NCBI GenBank assembly: GCA_029862185.1
Contig: JAOTXX010000042.1
Location: 1-35,378, forward strand
DNA: 35,378 nt
Reading direction: 5' to 3'
Source of the DNA: Myxococcales bacterium
GTDB taxonomy: Bacteria > Myxococcota_A > Polyangia > Polyangiales > Houyiibacteriaceae
Below, piece after piece: positions 4,960 through 14,375 of the stretch. A program made the translations under genes and the position numbers. Every line of letters starts with the position of its first letter. The stretch's first letter is position 1. The notes under the pieces were generated by a model. That model ran no database searches. It was given only the letters and a program-made list of their open reading frames with translations, and was not told where the DNA came from.

Positions 4960-5879
4960 TCAGCCCTCTTCGGCCGCGAGCTGCCGGATGTCGAGAGGCG
5001 TTTTCGGAAAGAGCTCGATCGCCGCTGCTGCAACGGATACAGCGCCGCCGCTCGCGTCGATTGCTTTGAGCACACGCGCACTCAGGAGATGCTTCGTGGC
5101 GCGTCGCCGGTCGAACTGGACCGTGTATCGAATCGTGAACTTCACCCAGTTTTCATCGAAGACGAACGTGACCATCGGAGCAGTGCTCGCGTCTTCGAGT
5201 GGCTAGCGCCTCTGCATGCGCGCCCAGATCGTCGTGGCCTGCTCGGCGTATCCACTGCAGACTTCGTTCGCCGTTCGGTGAGAGCGGATTGGGCCATGTC
5301 GAGATCACTCCCGAACCGAATCGGCACAGTGATCTCATCCCACAAAATAGGAAAATCACCCGAGTAGTTCACGACCGGATCTTTGAAAATGAAGCTGTTC
5401 GCGACGCGCACCATCCGGCCGTTGTAGAGGTCGCCATCGACCCACTGGCCGACCTCCACCAGCGTCGTGCGGAGAACTCCGATGTCGATGACGTCCCCTT
5501 TGATGCCACCGAGTTGAATGCGGTCACCGACGGTGTAGAAGCTGCCGAACGAAACCGCAGCCCATCCAGCGACGCTGACGATGACCTCCTGAAGAGCGAA
5601 CGCGATTCCCGCACCCGCGACGCCGAAGACCACACTCAGGCGACCGAGCCGATCGCTGAACATGGCGATCACGACCAGCGCTCCGAGCAAGTATCCAATG
5701 AACCCTATCGCCTTGCGCGCTCGGTATCGGACGGCCTTGTCGTCGATGTACCGGGTTGCAACTCGCTCGACGACCTGGCCGATCGCGACCACCACCACGA
5801 TTGCGACCCGTGCGCCGACCAACTTCGAAAGCACCGGGTCATCCAGCCATTTCAGTACATTTTGAATCGCCTTTTCCAT
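4960..5879 (-). pseudogene. MscS-family mechanosensitive channel, inactivated
   Basis: From the ATG at 5879 (GAGG upstream) the frame reads MEKAIQNVLKWLDD. Membrane helices follow, then the pore/beta-domain segment GVAGAGIAFALQEVIVSV, VGDRIQLGG and VANSFIFKDPVVNY. After SALTE, near 5273, the frame is lost. Adding one base there would restore ETANEVCSGYAEQATTIWARMQ in the third frame. That frame carries a TAG at 5205-5203 and then resumes PLEDASTAP and MVTFVFDENWVKFTIRYTVQF to a stop at 4960. Two separate lesions in the cytoplasmic C-terminal domain indicate a pseudogene. MscS proteins release solutes on hypo-osmotic shock. Two further MscS genes downstream appear intact. Confidence 0.8.
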
Positions 5880-6177
5880 CGTTCGTTCCTCACACGCGAC
5901 GTCGGGATGACGGAATGCGGCGACGATACTCCCTGGCCCGACTGTCGACTGGGCGTCTTCGTTCGTCGCGCGCGAGCGGAAAGCGGCCAAGCCTGGAGTC
6001 GGTCCAATCTGTGACGACGACGTTGAGCTCGTAGTCTCGACCCAGCTCATAGGTCGAGTCCCTCGCGGACCCAAAACGGGGTCTCGCAAGGAAAGATACG
6101 GTGTTCACAGCACGAGTGCTGACTTTTCCATCGAACACCTTACGTTTCGACCAGAGCAGCCCCAGATTCAACTAGCC
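5880..6177. other. Intergenic region between MscS pseudogene and hydrolase gene
   Basis: This 298-bp gap separates divergent genes and probably holds their promoters, though no confident -35/-10 pair was found. A minus-strand frame (6171 to about 5975) reads less Arg-rich than the usual shadow frames, for example DSTYELGRDYELNVVVTDWTD. It might be the remnant of a lost gene, but it has no clear start context and no family I recognise. Confidence 0.3.
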
Positions 6178-7239
6178 ATGGCGTCCACCCGCAACCATCT
6201 CAGCCGCGTCCTCGCAATCCTAGCGCTGGCACTGGTCTCTCCCGCCGCCGCCTCCCCCTTCGAGGACGCCCTCGGCCCGGCCCCTCGCGAAGATGACGGT
6301 CGGTTCCTGAACTTGGCAGGTCCGATGCCCGAAGTAAGCGCCTCCGTGACGCTGCCCTTCTTCCTCCGGCGCATCGCGAGCTCCTTTACCGAGATCTCGA
6401 GTGCGCTCGATCAGGTGCCCAACGATGGCGCCTGGCTGCGCGAGAATGCGAAGCACAGCGAGCCCGCGGTGACCTGGGTTGGTCACGCGACGCTCCTGGT
6501 TCAAATGGGTCACCTCACGTTCCTCACCGATCCGATCTGGTCGGACCGGGCAAGTCCGGTCTCCTTCGCGGGGCCGCAACGAATCGTGGAGCCGGGTGTC
6601 GCAATCGACGACCTTCCTCCGATCGACTTCGTGGTGGTCTCGCACAATCACTACGACCACCTCGACCTTCCGAGCTTGGTCACGCTGTCGGAGCGGGATC
6701 CAAACACACGCTTCTACGTTCCTCTCGAAAACGGCGAACTCCTCCGCGAGAACGGAATCGAAAACGTCGAAGAGCTCGACTGGGGCCAGCATGTCGAGCA
6801 CGAAGGGGTGCGCGTCTACTGCCTGCCCGCGCAGCATTGGAGCAAGCGCGGCATTGGCGACGATCGCGAAGCACTCTGGTCGTCCTGGGCGGTAGTCAGC
6901 CCGGAGCGAAGGTTCTTCTTCGCGGGGGACACCGGCTACTTCGACGGATTTGCGCGCATTGCCGAAGCGCTCGGCCCGTTCGACCTCGCTGCCCTGCCGA
7001 TCGGCGCCTACGAGCCGACCGAGATGATGAAAGCCTCCCACTTGAATCCCGAAGAAGCGGTTCAAGCGGCCATCGACCTTCGCGCCCGCGCCGCCGTCGC
7101 CATGCACTACGGCACGTTCAAGCTCTCCGACGAGCCTCTCGATGAACCGCCCACGCGCTTCAAGGAAGCGGCGTCCGAAGGTGCTCTCGGAGACGAGGCC
7201 GCTTGGTTGCTCCGCATTGGCGAAACCCGCGCCTTCTGA
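6178..7239 (+). CDS. Metallo-beta-lactamase-fold hydrolase, NAPE-PLD/UlaG-like, exported
   Basis: This 353-residue protein has an N-terminal signal peptide (hydrophobic residues about 10-25, cleavage near PAAA-S). The metal site is HNHYDH (H156, H158, D160, H161). Further likely ligands are H220 (PAQHWS), D251 (FFAGDTGYF) and H310 (AMHYGTF). The order TWVGHATLLVQ, FLTDPIWSDRASP, HxHxDH, QHWSKR is characteristic of the COG2220 branch that includes N-acylphosphatidylethanolamine phospholipase D. A phosphodiesterase on membrane lipids in the periplasm is therefore plausible; related members cleave other substrates. No strong ribosome site precedes the ATG. A hairpin overlaps its stop codon. Confidence 0.88.
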   Translation: MASTRNHLSRVLAILALALVSPAAASPFEDALGPAPREDDGRFLNLAGPMPEVSASVTLPFFLRRIASSFTEISSALDQVPNDGAWLRENAKHSEPAVTWVGHATLLVQMGHLTFLTDPIWSDRASPVSFAGPQRIVEPGVAIDDLPPIDFVVVSHNHYDHLDLPSLVTLSERDPNTRFYVPLENGELLRENGIENVEELDWGQHVEHEGVRVYCLPAQHWSKRGIGDDREALWSSWAVVSPERRFFFAGDTGYFDGFARIAEALGPFDLAALPIGAYEPTEMMKASHLNPEEAVQAAIDLRARAAVAMHYGTFKLSDEPLDEPPTRFKEAASEGALGDEAAWLLRIGETRAF

Positions 7240-7246
7240 CGCGGGT
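7225..7246. terminator. Hairpin between convergent genes
   Basis: ACCCGCG (7225-7231) pairs perfectly with CGCGGGT (7240-7246) across an 8-nt loop that contains the end of the hydrolase gene. It lies between convergent genes and could stop transcription both ways. No T-run follows on either strand, so the call is weak. Confidence 0.35.
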
Positions 7247-7256
7247 GAATCGACCC

Positions 7257-8183
7257 TCAGGCCGGCACCGGCTCCATGCCGCGACCCCCCGGGATCGTCC
7301 GGTAGAGGATCGCCGGCGGGGCGATGCGGTGCTGCTCGAACGCACGCATGACCCGGAGGTTCACGTCGGTCTCGAAGGCCTTCTCGTATTGCGTGTCGAG
7401 CACATAGGCCTTGAGCTGAAGCCGCACCGCGACGTAGTTGTCTTGGATGACTTGAGTGACGAGGACGACGACGGGTTTGGGAAGATGGACATAGCGGCTG
7501 GTCAGCCCGGCCTCGGTCACGATGTCACGCGCCTTGGTGACGTCTTGGTCGAGCCCAATGTAGAAGTCCATGACGACCTGCATGTCGAGGGCGCCGTAGT
7601 TCCCGCAGGACGTCATGTCGGTCAGGAACTTGTTGTTGGGTATGGTCACCGTGTTGTCGTTCAATGTCTGAAGCCGTACCGAACGAAGGCCAATCGCCGT
7701 GATGTCTCCGTACTCCCCACCAAACGCGACCCGGTCGCCGACTTGGAACGGTTGGTCGATCATGATCATGATGCCGGCGATGAACGAGGCGACCAGATCG
7801 CGAACGGCGAAGCCCACGGCGACCGCCGCCGTGCCACCCAGCAAGGTGAGAACCTTGGCATCGAAGCGGACGCTCAGCGCGATGACGGTGCCGATGGTTC
7901 CAATGTAAACGAAGAACTGGACGATCGTGCCGAGCTTCTGGAAGAGCATGCGACGGGTCGTGAACTGGTCTCCAAGGTTTTCGACGAAGTTGTTGAAGAA
8001 ACGAATGCCAACCCAGACCCCGATGATGATGAAGATCGACGTGACGACTCCGCCCCAGCGAATCGCCTGGCTGATCTGCGAAATCACTTCCTCGTCGCTC
8101 GACTCCTGCGCGACGGCCAGCGCTGGACCGAGCCACTGCCCGAGCAGCGCTGCGGATAAGATGATTGGTTTGTGTACTTTCAT
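7257..8183 (-). CDS. MscS-family mechanosensitive channel, paired with membrane ATPase
   Basis: I choose the ATG at 8183 (GAGGTG upstream). It gives a 308-residue protein beginning MKVHKPIILSAALLGQWLGPALAVAQ, a likely signal peptide or first helix, followed by an acidic linker. Membrane helices follow (TSIFIIIGVWVGIRFF, QFFVYIGTIGTVIALSV). The conserved pore-lining/beta segment is GGTAAVAVGFAVRDLVASFIAG, then IDQPFQVGDRVAFGGEYGDITAIGLRSVRL and VTIPNNKFLTD, the MscS hallmark. The protein ends shortly after the cytoplasmic alpha/beta domain. Its start lies 10 bp after the stop of the large ATPase gene, so the two are surely co-transcribed. It probably forms a homo-heptameric inner-membrane channel whose gating may be influenced by the ATPase; that link is inferred. 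Confidence 0.92.
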   Translation of the reverse strand: MKVHKPIILSAALLGQWLGPALAVAQESSDEEVISQISQAIRWGGVVTSIFIIIGVWVGIRFFNNFVENLGDQFTTRRMLFQKLGTIVQFFVYIGTIGTVIALSVRFDAKVLTLLGGTAAVAVGFAVRDLVASFIAGIMIMIDQPFQVGDRVAFGGEYGDITAIGLRSVRLQTLNDNTVTIPNNKFLTDMTSCGNYGALDMQVVMDFYIGLDQDVTKARDIVTEAGLTSRYVHLPKPVVVLVTQVIQDNYVAVRLQLKAYVLDTQYEKAFETDVNLRVMRAFEQHRIAPPAILYRTIPGGRGMEPVPA

Positions 8184-8193
8184 GCCGAACACC

Positions 8194-11100
8194 TCAGAGC
8201 AGCAGCAGGTGCTTTCTGCGAAGGATACTGATGATCGCGCGATACCACTGAAGGTCAATCTCGAAAAGATGCGCGTTCTCCTTGATGTAGCCGTGAACGC
8301 GTGCGGCACGCAGGGCGTCTGCGACTTCAGCCGCGCTCAGGTCTGTGCAGGTGACCACATCTTCCTCGACCGCCAGCTCTAGCTGAACGATGGTGCGTAG
8401 GACGAAGTAGAAGGTCGCGGGCAGGTCGTCGAGCTGACCGGCGGACGGCCCTGAGAAGAGCCGGACGTGCACCGTCTCATCATCGGACCGCCGATACAGA
8501 GACTCCCGCCAGAAGTGAAGTGCGACCTGTGGATTGCCGTCCGAGTAATCCCAGAGAATGCGGTAGAAGTCGCGCTTCGTGCGCTCTTCGTCCGAGACCG
8601 GGGAGGTTCGCACCTGGCGCGGCACTACCAAGCGTTCGAAGCTTGGCACGACCCCCGCCGCCGCGGAGCGCTGCTCGATCAGCGACGCGATTTGATTTTC
8701 CTCCCAAGGCTGCAGCTCGATGACTTGGTCGAACGCGGCGCGATCTCCGCGGGCCCGCCGGAGGTACTGCCAGGCAGGCATGCCAATGGCGATCAACCAC
8801 GAGGTTTGCGGGCTGACGCTGCGCGTGAGTTGGACGAGTTGGTCGATGGCTTTCAAGCCACCGATCAGCGGCCGGACGAGCCTTTGCGCGTCATCGACGC
8901 GGATCACACTCGGAGCGCGCTCACCCAGGGACGCGATGACTTCGTCCTCGCTTGCCGTCTCGGGAAGCCCGAGGGCACGCGCGAACTCGACCAAGAGCGC
9001 GGCGAAGCCTCCGGGCTGGCATTGCACCGCACAGAGGCTGCCCGGTTCGAGGTCACTCGTGACGCGATTGAGAAAGGTGGTTTTCCCAAGCCCGCGTTCT
9101 CCGACCAGCGCGACAATCGCATGGCGCTCGGACCGCACGAGCGCGCGCATCGCGTGAACGCTCTCCGACATGTACGACGTCAGAAGCTCGGGGGGAGTCT
9201 CGGGATGGGGTGCCAAGGCCCCGTAGACGTCAGCGGGAATTGGCTCGGTCCCGTACTCGGCAGGGGTGGCCGTCTTGTTTTTCTCGACTCCACGTCGAAA
9301 CAAGTAGGCGAAAACCCGACGGAGCGGCGCGAGATCGCTCACCCGCCGAACGACAAACCCGGCGACGCCTTCGATTAGAAGATAAACGCCTCCGACCGTT
9401 GCAGCCGGGTAAGTGAGCAGCCCGTGGTCGTGCCGCACAACCCACTTCAACACGGCCGACGCTTCGCGGCCTTTCGCGCGCTCGAAGATCGTATCCTTCC
9501 ACCAGACGATCAGCACCAGGAACACGGGGATTGCGAGAAAGCCAAATGTACTGACGACCCAAGCGTAGATTGCGCCCTTGCCGACGGTGGCGACCGTCAG
9601 CGATAGAATCAACCCCACCGCGACGATGCTTACGCCGACCAGGCGCAGCGAGCGAAAGCGTAACTTGGCGGAAGACTCACTCGAGAAGCCCTGACGGCTG
9701 GCTGTCGCGTCGATCAGCTCGACAACGAACGCACCTGCCAACAGCCACAAGACGACGATCTGGACATACTTCGTCTCCGGCAGATGTCCCGCTTTGGCGA
9801 CCAACATCGTCAACACGGAGAACAAGGCCAGCCACTCGAGTGGCTTTCGAATTCGACGCAGGTACCAAACGAAGGTCGAAACTCCGCGGGTCAGATGCGT
9901 CTGGGGCCGTTTTTGAAGCCAAGCGCGCCGCGATTGCTCGAGCGTGTCGTCGGCCCGCTTTCGCCACCAGCGAAAGACCAGCACGAGGAGCAGAAGCTGA
10001 ACTAGGCTGAAGACCACCGGCCCGGGTGAGGACCGGAGCTGCCGATACTGGCGAGCCGCCTCCCGCGGCACGACGAGCAAGTGGAAGCGGACCTCGAGGA
10101 TGATCTGGTCGAGCTCGCGCTTGACCTGGGCGACGCCGTCGGGGCCAAAGCCCTCGAGACTGTCACGCCGAGACTCGCTGAGCATTTCAAAGAGACGAAG
10201 GCGAGCCCGATTCATGATGACAATCGCGTCGCGAAGCGCTTCAGCGCGATCCCAGTTGAGCTGAGCCTCGAGGGCCTGGAGCTCGATCGCGGAACTGCTG
10301 AGTGCGGTTCGGAGCTCCCGTGTAGCGCCGTCGTCGATGTCGGCAGGGAGCTGGTCGTCATCCGCATTGGGAGGAAGAGGGACTCCACTCGGCTCCGATC
10401 TCACGGCGTCGAGGGCGAGGCTCAAGTCGTGGCGCGCGTCGCCGAGATCCTTCGTGAGGCCCCGGTAGAGGTGGTCGGCTTGATTTGCTCTTGCCTCTCC
10501 GGACGGCATCGCGCTTCTCAACTCCCGAACTCTTCGGTTCCATGCGAGCGCGGACTCGGTCTTGGCCTCGACCTTTGCCCGACTGCTTGCAAGCTCCGCT
10601 TTGAACCGGGCTTGAGCTTCCTTCACGCTCAATAGCTGAGCACGCCGATCCGCGATCAGTCGAAGTGACTCGGTCTTGGCCTCCTGGGAGTCGACGAGCG
10701 CTACTTCACGTTCCAAAGCAGCGTCCTTGGCCGCCTGCTCGGCGCCACTTATCTGCTCGGCCAGCGCTTCGGAGGGTTCAACGCGGCTTTCCGCATGCTT
10801 TGACAGCAGGCGCCTACGCTCGGCATCGTCGAGCTCGAGAAATTGAATCCAGAGCATGTCGCGCCGTTGCTTCGCAGCGTTCAGTTGCCCGTCGACGTCA
10901 TCTTTGGCGGCGGCTGGGATAGGCCCCCGGGAGCTCGGGTCCAAGAAGCGGCGGCGCCGTTCGGGGTCTGCCGCAAGGTCCGTGAGCTCGGCCGGGTCGA
11001 TCTCGAGAAGCGGTCGGGGATCGATCGAAGGGTCCAAGTCCCCCACGAGAAACGCGTCCAGCTGCGCGATTTGCTCCTCGAGCTTGACGAGCATCTCGGC

Positions 11101-11628
11101 TTTTGCCTGGGCCGAGCTGGCTTGCGCCTCGGCCTCTCGGCGCCTGGCCTCATGCTTGGAAAGAATCGCTTCGCGCTCCGAGCGCGGGAGAGAGAGAAAC
11201 GCCGCCTGTGCTTCAACCAGCTCTCGGTGCGCCTTCCCCAAGGCGTCCTCGGAGCCTCTGGTGCGGAGAACACGCTCGCGGCTTGATTGACGCCCTTCCC
11301 GCCTGGCGTCCTGCTCGAGCTCTCGCAGCAGCAGATCGAGATCTGGGTTGGCCTTCGGGGCGCCGAGGTCGACCGTGAAGAGGGTCTGCGGATCGACCGC
11401 CACATCCAAGCGCCCCACCATGAGTTGTCGGATCCGCTTGGTCTGCTCCCGTAGCTCCTCGATGGTTGGAGCCTTGGCATCCTCGGCTTCGAGCGAAGCC
11501 GCCGGCACCCCGGCGTCCCCGACCGCCTCCGTTGCGGTTGGTGCTTGGGCGTCCGCAGAGGGGGCCCAGCAGCAGAGGACCAGCGTCAGCCTGAGCCACA
11601 GTCGGTCGCTAGAAGTGGTCATCGGCAT
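8194..11628 (-). CDS. Large membrane protein: periplasmic coiled coil, membrane helices, cytoplasmic P-loop ATPase
   Basis: Starting at ATG 11628 (ATG 11622 also possible) this is about 1,144 residues. After a signal peptide (TTSSDRLWLRLTLVLCCWAPSA) comes about 480 residues rich in Glu, Ala, Arg and Leu with coiled-coil character. Several hydrophobic helices follow at roughly 536-554, 596-614, 619-638, 661-680 and 684-708, and perhaps 736-760. The C-terminal third has a Walker A motif GERGLGKT (about 843-850), a Walker B-like VIRVDDAQ near 908, and an AAA_22/STAND-like layout. A probable winged helix ends the protein (LSAAEVADALRAARVHGYIKE). The ATPase must be cytoplasmic, so an odd number of membrane passes is expected. 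The layout echoes MscK, but an ATPase occupies the channel position and the MscS subunit is the next gene. I know of no named family with this full architecture. Confidence 0.85.
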   Translation of the reverse strand: MPMTTSSDRLWLRLTLVLCCWAPSADAQAPTATEAVGDAGVPAASLEAEDAKAPTIEELREQTKRIRQLMVGRLDVAVDPQTLFTVDLGAPKANPDLDLLLRELEQDARREGRQSSRERVLRTRGSEDALGKAHRELVEAQAAFLSLPRSEREAILSKHEARRREAEAQASSAQAKAEMLVKLEEQIAQLDAFLVGDLDPSIDPRPLLEIDPAELTDLAADPERRRRFLDPSSRGPIPAAAKDDVDGQLNAAKQRRDMLWIQFLELDDAERRRLLSKHAESRVEPSEALAEQISGAEQAAKDAALEREVALVDSQEAKTESLRLIADRRAQLLSVKEAQARFKAELASSRAKVEAKTESALAWNRRVRELRSAMPSGEARANQADHLYRGLTKDLGDARHDLSLALDAVRSEPSGVPLPPNADDDQLPADIDDGATRELRTALSSSAIELQALEAQLNWDRAEALRDAIVIMNRARLRLFEMLSESRRDSLEGFGPDGVAQVKRELDQIILEVRFHLLVVPREAARQYRQLRSSPGPVVFSLVQLLLLVLVFRWWRKRADDTLEQSRRAWLQKRPQTHLTRGVSTFVWYLRRIRKPLEWLALFSVLTMLVAKAGHLPETKYVQIVVLWLLAGAFVVELIDATASRQGFSSESSAKLRFRSLRLVGVSIVAVGLILSLTVATVGKGAIYAWVVSTFGFLAIPVFLVLIVWWKDTIFERAKGREASAVLKWVVRHDHGLLTYPAATVGGVYLLIEGVAGFVVRRVSDLAPLRRVFAYLFRRGVEKNKTATPAEYGTEPIPADVYGALAPHPETPPELLTSYMSESVHAMRALVRSERHAIVALVGERGLGKTTFLNRVTSDLEPGSLCAVQCQPGGFAALLVEFARALGLPETASEDEVIASLGERAPSVIRVDDAQRLVRPLIGGLKAIDQLVQLTRSVSPQTSWLIAIGMPAWQYLRRARGDRAAFDQVIELQPWEENQIASLIEQRSAAAGVVPSFERLVVPRQVRTSPVSDEERTKRDFYRILWDYSDGNPQVALHFWRESLYRRSDDETVHVRLFSGPSAGQLDDLPATFYFVLRTIVQLELAVEEDVVTCTDLSAAEVADALRAARVHGYIKENAHLFEIDLQWYRAIISILRRKHLLLL

Positions 11629-11721
11629 CCGAATCGGCGGGAGTATAGGCGGCCTCTGACTCCCGGAGTAGCGAATGTTTCGCCAGAGAACGAGGGGCGA
11701 AGGCAATGAGACGAGCTTGAC

Positions 11722-12942
11722 ATGGCCAAGATGGCGACGTCAGATGAGCCCGCAGAACCCAAGGAGCCTCCCATCGCCAAGAAGGTACAGCGGAAGCGAA
11801 AGCGCGCAGCTTTGCGCAGGCGGCGACCCCAGACGCTCGGCTTGGCGCCCGGGAGCATCACCGCCGTCCCTGGCGCGCCGCCTGCGGTAATTCGGGTCAT
11901 CTCCTACGACGCGGATCGCGTCGAGGAGCGATCGATCGAGCGCGTTTCCGATCTAAAGGCAATCCGCGACAGCAGTAGAGGTGTCAGTTGGATCAACATC
12001 GATGGCATAGGCGACCCGGACACCTTGTCTCAGCTCGGCGAGCTGTTTGGGCTTCATCTGCTCGCCTTGGAAGACGTGGTGAACCTGCATCAGAGACCGA
12101 AATTCGAGGACTACGGCGACACCGACTTCATCGTGCTGCGCATGCCGTCACTGAGCCCACACCTCGATCTCGAGCAAGTGAGCATGTTTGTTCACGATCG
12201 CTTCGTGATCACCATCCAGGAGAAGCCTGGGGACTGTTTCGATTCACTGCGCGAGCGAATACGGAATGGGAAAGGGAGAGTCCGCCGCCGGGGGGGCGCC
12301 TATCTCGCGTATGCCGTGCTCGATGCGATCGTCGAGACATTTTACCCGGTGGTCGAAAGCTATACTGACCAGCTGGAAGAAATCGAGAGCAGAGTGCTGG
12401 CAAACCAGACCGAGAATGTCGTCGCGGAGGTTCATGCGGTTCGGCACGATTTGCGTGTTTTGCGGCGCGCGGTCGCCCCAACCCGTGAGGTCCTTAGCGC
12501 GATGGCCCGGGCAGATGCCAGCGACTCCAACGGCGATACCCACATCTTCCTCCGAGACTGTCACGATCACACGGTTCAATTGATGGAGGCTCTCGATACG
12601 AACCGTGAGCTCGCCTCGAGCCTCATGGACATGCATCTGTCCAACGTGAGCATGCGAATGAACGAAGTCATGAAGGTCCTGACCATCATCGCGACGATTT
12701 TCATGCCGCTTGGCTTCATCGCAGGGCTCTATGGCATGAACTTCGACGGTGACCTTTCACGCTGGAACATGCCGGAGCTCCGATGGCGCTTCGGCTATCT
12801 CTTCGCTCTCGGCGCGATGGGGCTCACCGCGATCGGGCTCGTATGGTTCTTTCGAGCCAAGGGCTGGCTTGGTGAAGGCGGCCATGAAGGCAACCACGGC
12901 GGTGAGCCGGAGAAGAAACCCCCTGGCGCTGGCGGCACCTAG
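11722..12942 (+). CDS. corA: CorA-type magnesium/divalent-cation transporter
   Basis: This 406-residue protein has a basic, Lys/Arg-rich N-terminal tail, then the CorA cytoplasmic alpha/beta domain (VSWINIDGIGDPDTLSQLGELFGL, ALEDVVN..QRPKFEDYGD). A long stalk helix follows (YTDQLEEIESRV). Two C-terminal membrane helices come next, with the signature YGMNF (GMN at 338-340) at the end of the first. CorA pentamers carry Mg2+, and sometimes Co2+ or Ni2+, across the inner membrane. The C-terminus is extended by a Gly/Pro/Lys-rich tail. The start is either 11722 or the in-frame ATG at 11731; neither has a strong ribosome site. It is divergent from the ATPase-MscS unit. Confidence 0.93.
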   Translation: MAKMATSDEPAEPKEPPIAKKVQRKRKRAALRRRRPQTLGLAPGSITAVPGAPPAVIRVISYDADRVEERSIERVSDLKAIRDSSRGVSWINIDGIGDPDTLSQLGELFGLHLLALEDVVNLHQRPKFEDYGDTDFIVLRMPSLSPHLDLEQVSMFVHDRFVITIQEKPGDCFDSLRERIRNGKGRVRRRGGAYLAYAVLDAIVETFYPVVESYTDQLEEIESRVLANQTENVVAEVHAVRHDLRVLRRAVAPTREVLSAMARADASDSNGDTHIFLRDCHDHTVQLMEALDTNRELASSLMDMHLSNVSMRMNEVMKVLTIIATIFMPLGFIAGLYGMNFDGDLSRWNMPELRWRFGYLFALGAMGLTAIGLVWFFRAKGWLGEGGHEGNHGGEPEKKPPGAGGT

Positions 12943-12968
12943 CGTGCGATTGGCAATGGCGGCGAATG

Positions 12969-13403
12969 TCAGCCGGCGTTCGCTAGACCCAGGGCCGAGG
13001 AGATCTCTTGCAATGTGGTGTCCTCGGCCGCCCATACGCGGCCATCGGCAGCAGCGGCGATTGCAGCCGCGCTTCGGACCAGCTCGCTCCTGACCGGATC
13101 GCCTGCGACCCGCGCGATGCAATCAAGGGCGCGTTGCCGGCCATCTTCGGGGTTCGCAATCAAGGAGTCGGCCAAGTCCCGAAAGGTGCTTTCGAGCACG
13201 TCGAAGTCTAGACCGGAAAATACGGCCGCCTTGCCCCGGAGCATGTCGACGAACCCGTCGACCTCGGACCGGGCGAGCTCGCCGTCGGAGGCGGCCACCA
13301 ATGCAAAGGCCCCGGAGAGGGCTCGTAGCAGAACATCCGTGACATCCGCATCGAAACGAGCCCAAGTCGCAATCGCGTACGCCATAGTCTCGTCTACAAC
13401 CAT
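12969..13403 (-). CDS. TerB-like (tellurite-resistance/DjlA N-domain) protein
   Basis: This 144-residue all-helical protein shows the two acidic repeats of TerB-like domains: AASDGELARSEVDGF near residue 38 and AAADGRVWAAEDTTLQEI near residue 118, each with a DGxxxxxE pattern that may bind metal. A good AGGAGG site lies upstream of the ATG at 13403. TerB-like proteins are linked to tellurite resistance, membrane stress and metal sensing, but their biochemical role is poorly known. No other ter genes are present. Its place between corA and a divergent MscS gene suggests a part in ion or envelope stress. Confidence 0.75.
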   Translation of the reverse strand: MVVDETMAYAIATWARFDADVTDVLLRALSGAFALVAASDGELARSEVDGFVDMLRGKAAVFSGLDFDVLESTFRDLADSLIANPEDGRQRALDCIARVAGDPVRSELVRSAAAIAAAADGRVWAAEDTTLQEISSALGLANAG

Positions 13404-13487
13404 CGATGCCTCCTCAGCTGAAGAGAGATTAGCGTGACCTCCTCGAGATTGCGAGGCATCTTAGCGCTGGTTGGAATTGGAGGGCAT

Positions 13488-14375
13488 ATGAGTTTGAAGC
13501 AAGTCATCGAGAATCTGAGCTCTGTGCTGAGTACCGGGGTTTTTCAGATCGGAGGCACGCAGGTGACTCTGGGCACGCTGCTAGTCGCAGGCTTGGTCAT
13601 CGTATTGACGTTCGGGCTCTCCTCTCTGGCTCAGCGTGGGGTCCGGCGCGGAATGAAGCGACGAGGTGTCGTCGACGAAGGTGTCGTCGACGTCACCAAC
13701 AAGCTCTTGCACTACGTAGCGTTGTTCGTTGGGTTCGGCATTGCCCTTCGCCTGGTTGGGTTCGACTTGAGCACCCTGTTTGCCGCAGGCGCCATCTTCG
13801 CGGTCGGCATCGGCTTCGCGATGCAGAACATTGCGCAGAACTTCGTTTCGGGAATCATTCTCCTGGTGGAGCGGGCAATTACGCCGGGCGATGTGCTCGA
13901 GGTCGACGGCCGAATCGTCAAGGTGCTGCGCCTGGGAATCCGCGCGACCATCGCCAGATCCCGTGACGGAGAAGATGTGATCGTCCCGAACTCGCTGCTC
14001 GTGCAGTCACTGGTCAGAAACTTCACGCTCGACGACGCTGCCTATCGCGTCCGTACTGAAGTAGGGGTGACCTATGGCTCCGATATGGGGCTCGTTCGCA
14101 AGACCCTCGAGGAAGTCGCCAATCGCAACAGCGCCGGTGTCCCCCGCTACGAAGCACAAGTGCTCATGCTTCGCTTCGGCAACAGCTCGGTCGACTTCGA
14201 GGTCGCGATCTGGATGGATGACCCGTGGCTCGCGCGCCGCCGGCTTTCGCAGCTCAACGAGGAAATCTGGTCGGCGCTGAAGCGCGAAGGCATCGTCATC
14301 GCGTTCCCGCAGCTCGATGTTCACTTCGATGCCCCGGTCGAAGGGGGCCTCGGCCGGCTGGCGGCGGCTTCGTGA
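13488..14375 (+). CDS. MscS-family small-conductance mechanosensitive channel
   Basis: I select the ATG at 13488 because GGAGGG lies four bases upstream; the frame is open back to 13434, but that start (GTG) lacks support. The 295-residue protein has membrane helices (GTLLVAGLVIVLTFGLSSLA, LLHYVALFVGFGIALRLVGF). The pore helix and beta domain read FAAGAIFAVGIGFAMQNIAQNF, VERAITPGDVLEVDG and VIVPNSLLVQSLVRN. A C-terminal domain with DVHFDAP closes it, as in classical MscS (E. coli 286 residues). It should open on membrane tension to release ions and small solutes. It is transcribed divergently from the TerB-like gene (84 bp between) and converges on the glycosyltransferase gene. Confidence 0.93.
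   Translation: MSLKQVIENLSSVLSTGVFQIGGTQVTLGTLLVAGLVIVLTFGLSSLAQRGVRRGMKRRGVVDEGVVDVTNKLLHYVALFVGFGIALRLVGFDLSTLFAAGAIFAVGIGFAMQNIAQNFVSGIILLVERAITPGDVLEVDGRIVKVLRLGIRATIARSRDGEDVIVPNSLLVQSLVRNFTLDDAAYRVRTEVGVTYGSDMGLVRKTLEEVANRNSAGVPRYEAQVLMLRFGNSSVDFEVAIWMDDPWLARRRLSQLNEEIWSALKREGIVIAFPQLDVHFDAPVEGGLGRLAAAS

Follow-up and report, generated by a model that had tools for sequence, protein, structure and literature searches.

We favour, with some caution, the view that two adjacent genes of a Myxococcales bacterium encode a composite mechanosensitive channel of a split MscK type, controlled by nucleotide and acting in osmotic or volume regulation. The genes lie in a window of 35,378 nucleotides, which is the whole stretch of DNA analysed here; they encode a membrane-bound P-loop protein (P0001) and a small MscS channel (P0002). 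The basis of this view is the near-obligate pairing of the two genes, their correlated divergence, the homology of the P0001 membrane bundle with that of MscK and the reuse of the same switch domain beside MscS in other proteins.

The gene pair and its products

Both open reading frames described in an earlier note on this DNA, a P-loop protein and an MscS gene 10 bp further on, were recovered by ORF calls and Pfam (Table 1). P0001 is composed of a signal peptide, a periplasmic helical domain, an MscK-type five-helix membrane bundle, an AAA_22/STAND-like ATPase and a winged helix. For the exported part preceding the membrane region, the earlier note had proposed a coiled-coil character and about 480 residues: sequence and models agree with export and with helical structure, but the domain following the signal peptide counts about 505 residues. 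Several membrane helices had also been expected, and hydropathy identifies five strong ones (534-552, 593-611, 621-639, 664-682 and 690-708); a further helix around 737-755 is weakly hydrophobic. From the basic stretch that follows TM1 (WWRKRADDTLEQSRRAWLQKRPQ) and the odd helix count, an external N-terminus and a cytoplasmic ATPase are predicted.

Table 1. Positions in the window of the two genes and of their main features
Feature	Coordinates	Strand	Basis
Partner gene P0001, 1144 aa	8194..11628	-	ORF, Pfam, AF2 model, homologues
Export signal, P0001 residues 1-28	11545..11628	-	sequence, relatives
Periplasmic helical/coiled-coil domain, residues 29-533, with two 'DPxxLFxVDL'-like repeats	10030..11544	-	AF2 models, alignment A1
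Five-helix membrane bundle, P0001 residues 534-710 (homologous to EcMscK TM1-5, MscK 502-676; very probable)	9499..10029	-	HHalign, Foldseek, VIA-align
Cytoplasmic P-loop ATPase (AAA_22; ORC/Cdc6, TnsC, NLR-like fold) and winged helix	8197..9156	-	Pfam, Foldseek, VIA-align
Walker A GERGLGKT, P0001 residues 843-850	9079..9102	-	sequence, relatives' alignment
Walker B acidic pair D912-D913 of P0001	8890..8895	-	alignment
10-bp intergenic gap P0001/P0002, operon-like spacing	8184..8193	.	coordinates
MscS channel subunit P0002, 308 aa; own signal peptide, three-helix MscS core	7257..8183	-	Pfam PF00924, PDB matches, tree
Pore gate segment of P0002, V121 and F125	7809..7823	-	alignment with EcMscK

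The two periplasmic copies of the 'DPxxLFxVDL'-like motif are located at 11356-11403 and 10987-11061 (P0001 residues 76-91 and 190-214), and the first is conserved in most relatives. In one subgroup of relatives (L011-L015) the normal signal peptide is replaced by a lipoprotein-type signal (LSSGC, LAAC and similar), so that the periplasmic domain may be lipid-anchored there and could be tethered to a membrane. A partner protein from a MAG labelled uncultured Polyangiaceae displays 90-91% identity to P0001 over its last 527 residues; Enhygromyxa salina is another named source of relatives.

The AAA_22 domain of P0001 is detected by Pfam at residues 835-951 (E 8.7e-10, 39.4 bits for a cut-off of 27). 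The full-length AlphaFold2 model, computed from 12 sequences (mean pLDDT 76), begins with a helical part, followed by the bundle of membrane helices, the AAA+ domain and, at the C-terminus, a winged helix, the latter also covered by alignments with ORC/Cdc6, which reach the chain end. A PDB profile search with alignment A1 returned mostly generic P-loops. Foldseek and VIA-align give ORC1/Cdc6, TnsC and NLR-type proteins as best fold matches of the ATPase domain; FtsH is also among the similar folds. Neither the sequence nor the AF2 model contains the repeat sensor domain that STAND proteins typically carry at their C-terminus, P0001 stopping at the winged helix.

P0002 carries the MscS beta domain (PF00924, MS_channel_2nd) with E 1.5e-17 and 63.9 bits for a curated cut-off of 20.2, whereas the C-terminal MscS domain PF21082 scores 19.0 bits for a cut-off of 21. 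Its solved relatives among PDB matches include MscS, MscK and MscM, and its score against the NCBIfam MscK model is 50.9, the cut-off being 991. The channel has its own signal peptide in sequence, in agreement with the export-type N-terminus pointed out before. In the tree, the MscS of such pairs cluster coherently and separately from other MscS, with the exception of two very divergent members (L169 and L170), which are placed with a long-branch sequence and whose position is unsure.

Three MscS genes and one CorA transporter gene, the latter divergently oriented to the pair, are found within about 9 kb (5142-14375). One of these MscS genes (5289-5885, minus strand) is of another type and is apparently frameshifted near its end by comparison with a close relative; in several other genera, as on the Caulobacter plasmid, genes of this type directly adjoin the ATPase-MscS pair. 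It was rejected as an obligate component, being beside the pair in four of the 11 closest members of the phylum sample, as was CorA (11722-12942) as a third component, which is kept beside the pair within the genus only. No further conserved neighbour of the pair was found beyond genus level.

Constancy of the pairing

The association was surveyed by searches starting from either the ATPase or the MscS, covering hundreds of Myxococcota genomes as well as Novosphingobium and Caulobacter plasmids; single-protein queries were used for the Myxococcota phylum and class surveys, and outside this phylum plasmids were sampled. The two genes are found together in about 114 places, with one case displaced and one cut off. 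When the ATPase is taken as starting point, an MscS of the same group lies directly downstream on the same strand for all fetched members with a membrane part, the channel gene of L055 being a fragment only. Reciprocally, the P0002 query matches in 101 of 379 Myxococcota genomes, and in 72 of the 73 loci read the ATPase family is directly upstream; in the exception, L140, the ATPase is located 3.4 kb from its MscS. The recurrence across genomes that the earlier note proposed to check is thus observed from both sides. Neither of the outcomes that it named as refuting was encountered: homologues of the ATPase usually have an MscS neighbour, and no characterised family was matched.

Among 144 genomes of the class, 29 possess both genes, one the ATPase only and 114 neither (Fisher p = 1e-29); the linkage is far beyond chance. 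The source genome itself contains 12 MscS genes, two of which adjoin this ATPase family, in the window pair and in an exchanger-type locus described below. The pair is also carried by plasmids of two Novosphingobium strains and one Caulobacter, annotated in two of these three cases as plain ATPase and mechanosensitive channel; in Novosphingobium pentaromativorans US6-1 it corresponds to JI59_RS21590/RS21595. Over 104 loci, pairwise distances of the P0001-type and P0002-type proteins correlate strongly (r = 0.78, Mantel p = 0.001), as expected if both genes are inherited together. We hold the functional partnership of the ATPase protein and its MscS to be nearly certain.

Relationship with MscK

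Direct Pfam and NCBIfam searches detect no MscK N-terminal domain in P0001, including PF12794, and, taken by itself, the coiled-coil region of the periplasmic part shows no sequence alignment with MscK (HHalign 0.2%). The membrane bundle behaves differently in profile comparison. When 87 members of the P0001 family were compared with a deeper MscK/MscM-type alignment, HHalign matched P0001 542-706 to EcMscK 510-674 at 95.4% (score 75.9, 159 columns), the five hydrophobic helices corresponding one to one to EcMscK TM1-5. A first, shallower comparison (15 versus 7 sequences) had given 32%. As controls, 30 block-shuffled alignments did not exceed 21% (score at most 38.5), a reversed alignment 4%, and unrelated exchanger and SLC12 membrane domains 0.5% (score at most 18).

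In a fold search with the full-length model, the matches were filled by the ATPase domain; the membrane/periplasmic part was therefore folded alone (residues 245-830, pLDDT 81). Structures of EcMscK were then the first and second Foldseek matches among 350,542 PDB chains, with E-values (0.16 and 0.27) that by themselves are weak. VIA-align superposed P0001 324-709 on MscK 286-678 over 308 residues (Z 9.5, rmsd 10.1) in a compatible register. It is very probable that the membrane bundle of P0001 is a remote relative of the outer bundle of MscK, by homology and not by layout only.

On the side of the channel, the gate residues of EcMscK, V921 and F925 (PMC9653487), align with V121 and F125 of P0002; the valine is kept in 73 and the phenylalanine in 92 of 104 paired channels. 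Helices TM1-6 of EcMscK lie at the periphery as a bundle connected to the periplasmic ring, and the pore opens when this unit moves (PMC9653487). Taken together, the bundle homology and the gate alignment suggest that P0001 carries the sensor half of MscK and P0002 its pore half. The idea of a split MscK-like unit, put forward from the sequence alone, is thereby strengthened by the near-universal adjacency, the bundle and the MscK-type gate. It has to be corrected on one point: the ATPase does not take the place of the membrane part of MscK but is added behind an MscK-type membrane part. Elsewhere in the source genome, an MscK-type protein of the conventional single-chain form, which has an MscS_TM domain, is also encoded (G000:C67:19184-19954).

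A putative switch domain shared with ion transporters

Weak, ATPase-only matches of the P0001 search led to larger proteins of 1500-2600 aa. After long coiled coils and a transporter module, these sister proteins end in the same ATPase/winged-helix domain (HHalign 99.7-99.8%). According to Pfam, the module is either a Na+/H+ exchanger (PF00999) or a PF00324 permease, the latter being SLC12-like (NKCC1/KCC, E 7e-67); the exchanger type is present in 7 and the SLC12 type in 13 of the 144 class genomes. In every sister locus reaching far enough, an MscS gene is located directly downstream on the same strand. As the three layouts vary in the membrane module, the constant element is the ATPase/winged-helix domain with its adjacent MscS. 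All three kinds of membrane module are related to osmotic or volume control.

The exchanger-like protein of the source genome (L189, contig C47, minus strand, 5257-9501) combines coiled coils with a degenerate P-loop/winged helix and is directly followed by a divergent MscS. SLC12-type fusions include L193 (2327-7531, minus strand), L192, L199, L201 and L211-L227, with MscS next where the contig allows.

In the channel that we propose, P0002 subunits would form the pore. P0001 would supply the outer part of MscK as a separate subunit, with the periplasmic domain and the tension-sensing TM1-5 bundle acting as tension or periplasmic sensor. The P-loop/winged-helix switch at its cytoplasmic end would sit beside the MscS cytoplasmic cage and, depending on the nucleotide state or on a ligand in the cytoplasm, adjust the threshold for gating. 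A physical complex of P0001 and P0002 appears probable, and ATP binding, rather than mere scaffolding, may alter gating. Gating that depends on ATP in this particular species is a point on which our opinion is evenly balanced.

Walker A is intact (GxxxxGK[S/T]) in 85 of 109 relatives, P0001 included, in most cases accompanied by DD or DE, a point in favour of nucleotide binding having been kept in the majority of lineages. It is degenerate in the other 24, and variation is also seen at the second acid of Walker B; hydrolysis can hence not be what is conserved, and a binding switch or a scaffold fits better than a motor. The persistence of the pairing in spite of these losses, as well as the degenerate P-loop in three of the four exchanger-type members examined, would suit a pseudo-ATPase, in which P0001 would act structurally, as periplasmic anchor and outer bundle, to place or stabilise the MscS pore, its P-loop binding the cage and turnover being irrelevant. 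With the majority of Walker A motifs intact, we consider such a scaffold rather unlikely. Damaged motifs (GDRGxGKG, GKD and others) occur in groups among L120-L170, many outside the class, in which the MscS neighbour is retained.

The resemblance of the AAA+ fold to ORC/Cdc6, TnsC and FtsH, along with a long periplasmic domain that sometimes bears a lipobox, could also evoke a membrane-anchored ATPase for envelope assembly or quality control, merely co-transcribed with MscS. The near-obligate tie to one specific MscS group, with no other neighbour conserved beyond the genus, and a membrane bundle related to MscK make this very improbable. The death effector in defence considered by the earlier note, taken here as a STAND-like sensor that would open the MscS pore and kill the cell on phage infection, finds some echo in a P-loop domain that weakly resembles NACHT/NB-ARC/STAND types and is joined to a winged helix, and myxobacteria are rich in conflict systems. 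However, PADLOC gives no model match for either protein, no phage match or phage association of the pair was found, variable C-terminal sensor repeats are absent, divergence of the ATPase and MscS is correlated over the phylum and the MscS partners are MscK-type or volume-regulating transport modules. We regard this option as hardly credible.

To come back to the nucleotide-controlled channel, the sister proteins could point to a previously unrecognised superfamily of volume-control complexes. In this superfamily, the switch domain would be a standard adaptor joining the MscS pore to interchangeable modules (the MscK sensor half, a Na+/H+ antiporter or an SLC12 cation-chloride cotransporter) and coupling nucleotide or ion-transport state to mechanosensitive release. 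We see equal reason to expect and to doubt it.

No published description of an ATPase-paired MscS was found in the open literature, most subscription journals being outside this scope, and the statement of the earlier note that no system with this layout was described holds within the same limits. The pairing, together with the transporter-linked switch, suggests that bacteria connect the control of cell volume with ion transport and energy state in a way not described so far. MscS-type channels are usually viewed as passive tension valves. If a near-obligate partner does combine the sensor half of MscK with a nucleotide switch, some bacteria would regulate this valve by their energy or signalling state. 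Transporters of the SLC12 and Na+/H+ kinds set cell volume in animals; the same switch on such transporters would, if true, bring emergency release together with the uptake or exchange of ions within a single bacterial complex. In the pair, the sensor and the pore of MscK are also naturally 'dissected' from each other, so that the role of the MscK outer bundle becomes directly testable.

P0001 shares with MscK (KefA) and MscM of E. coli a predicted N-out orientation, a helical periplasmic domain of about 500 residues before the outer TM bundle and, very probably by homology, TM1-5, while P0002 has in common with them an MscS-core pore with V/F gate residues; the order of the two genes mirrors the MscK domain order. 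MscK and MscM are nevertheless one polypeptide with eleven TM helices and the MscS core last, whereas here two genes are separated by a 10-bp gap. Unlike MscK, P0001 contains a P-loop/winged-helix domain after TM5, and MscK TM6-8 have no clear counterpart. As MscK is a single chain and TM6-8 are absent here, the pair is not MscK by definition. Compared with small MscS channels, P0002 is likewise an ordinary-sized subunit with PF00924 and three membrane helices; its type differs by its own signal peptide, by forming a distinct group and by occurring almost never without the ATPase partner. With AAA_22/STAND-type ATPases (ORC1/Cdc6, TnsC, NLR fold), P0001 shares the core fold, Walker A and B, the GNP motif and a C-terminal winged helix, but its family is fused behind membrane modules, lacks the repeat sensor and includes degenerate P-loops. 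Finally, Na+/H+ exchangers (PF00999) and SLC12 cotransporters (NKCC/KCC) provide the modules of the sister partners in the same MscS-adjacent layout, and to our knowledge long coiled coils and an ATPase/winged-helix domain are not features of the characterised transporters of these two kinds.
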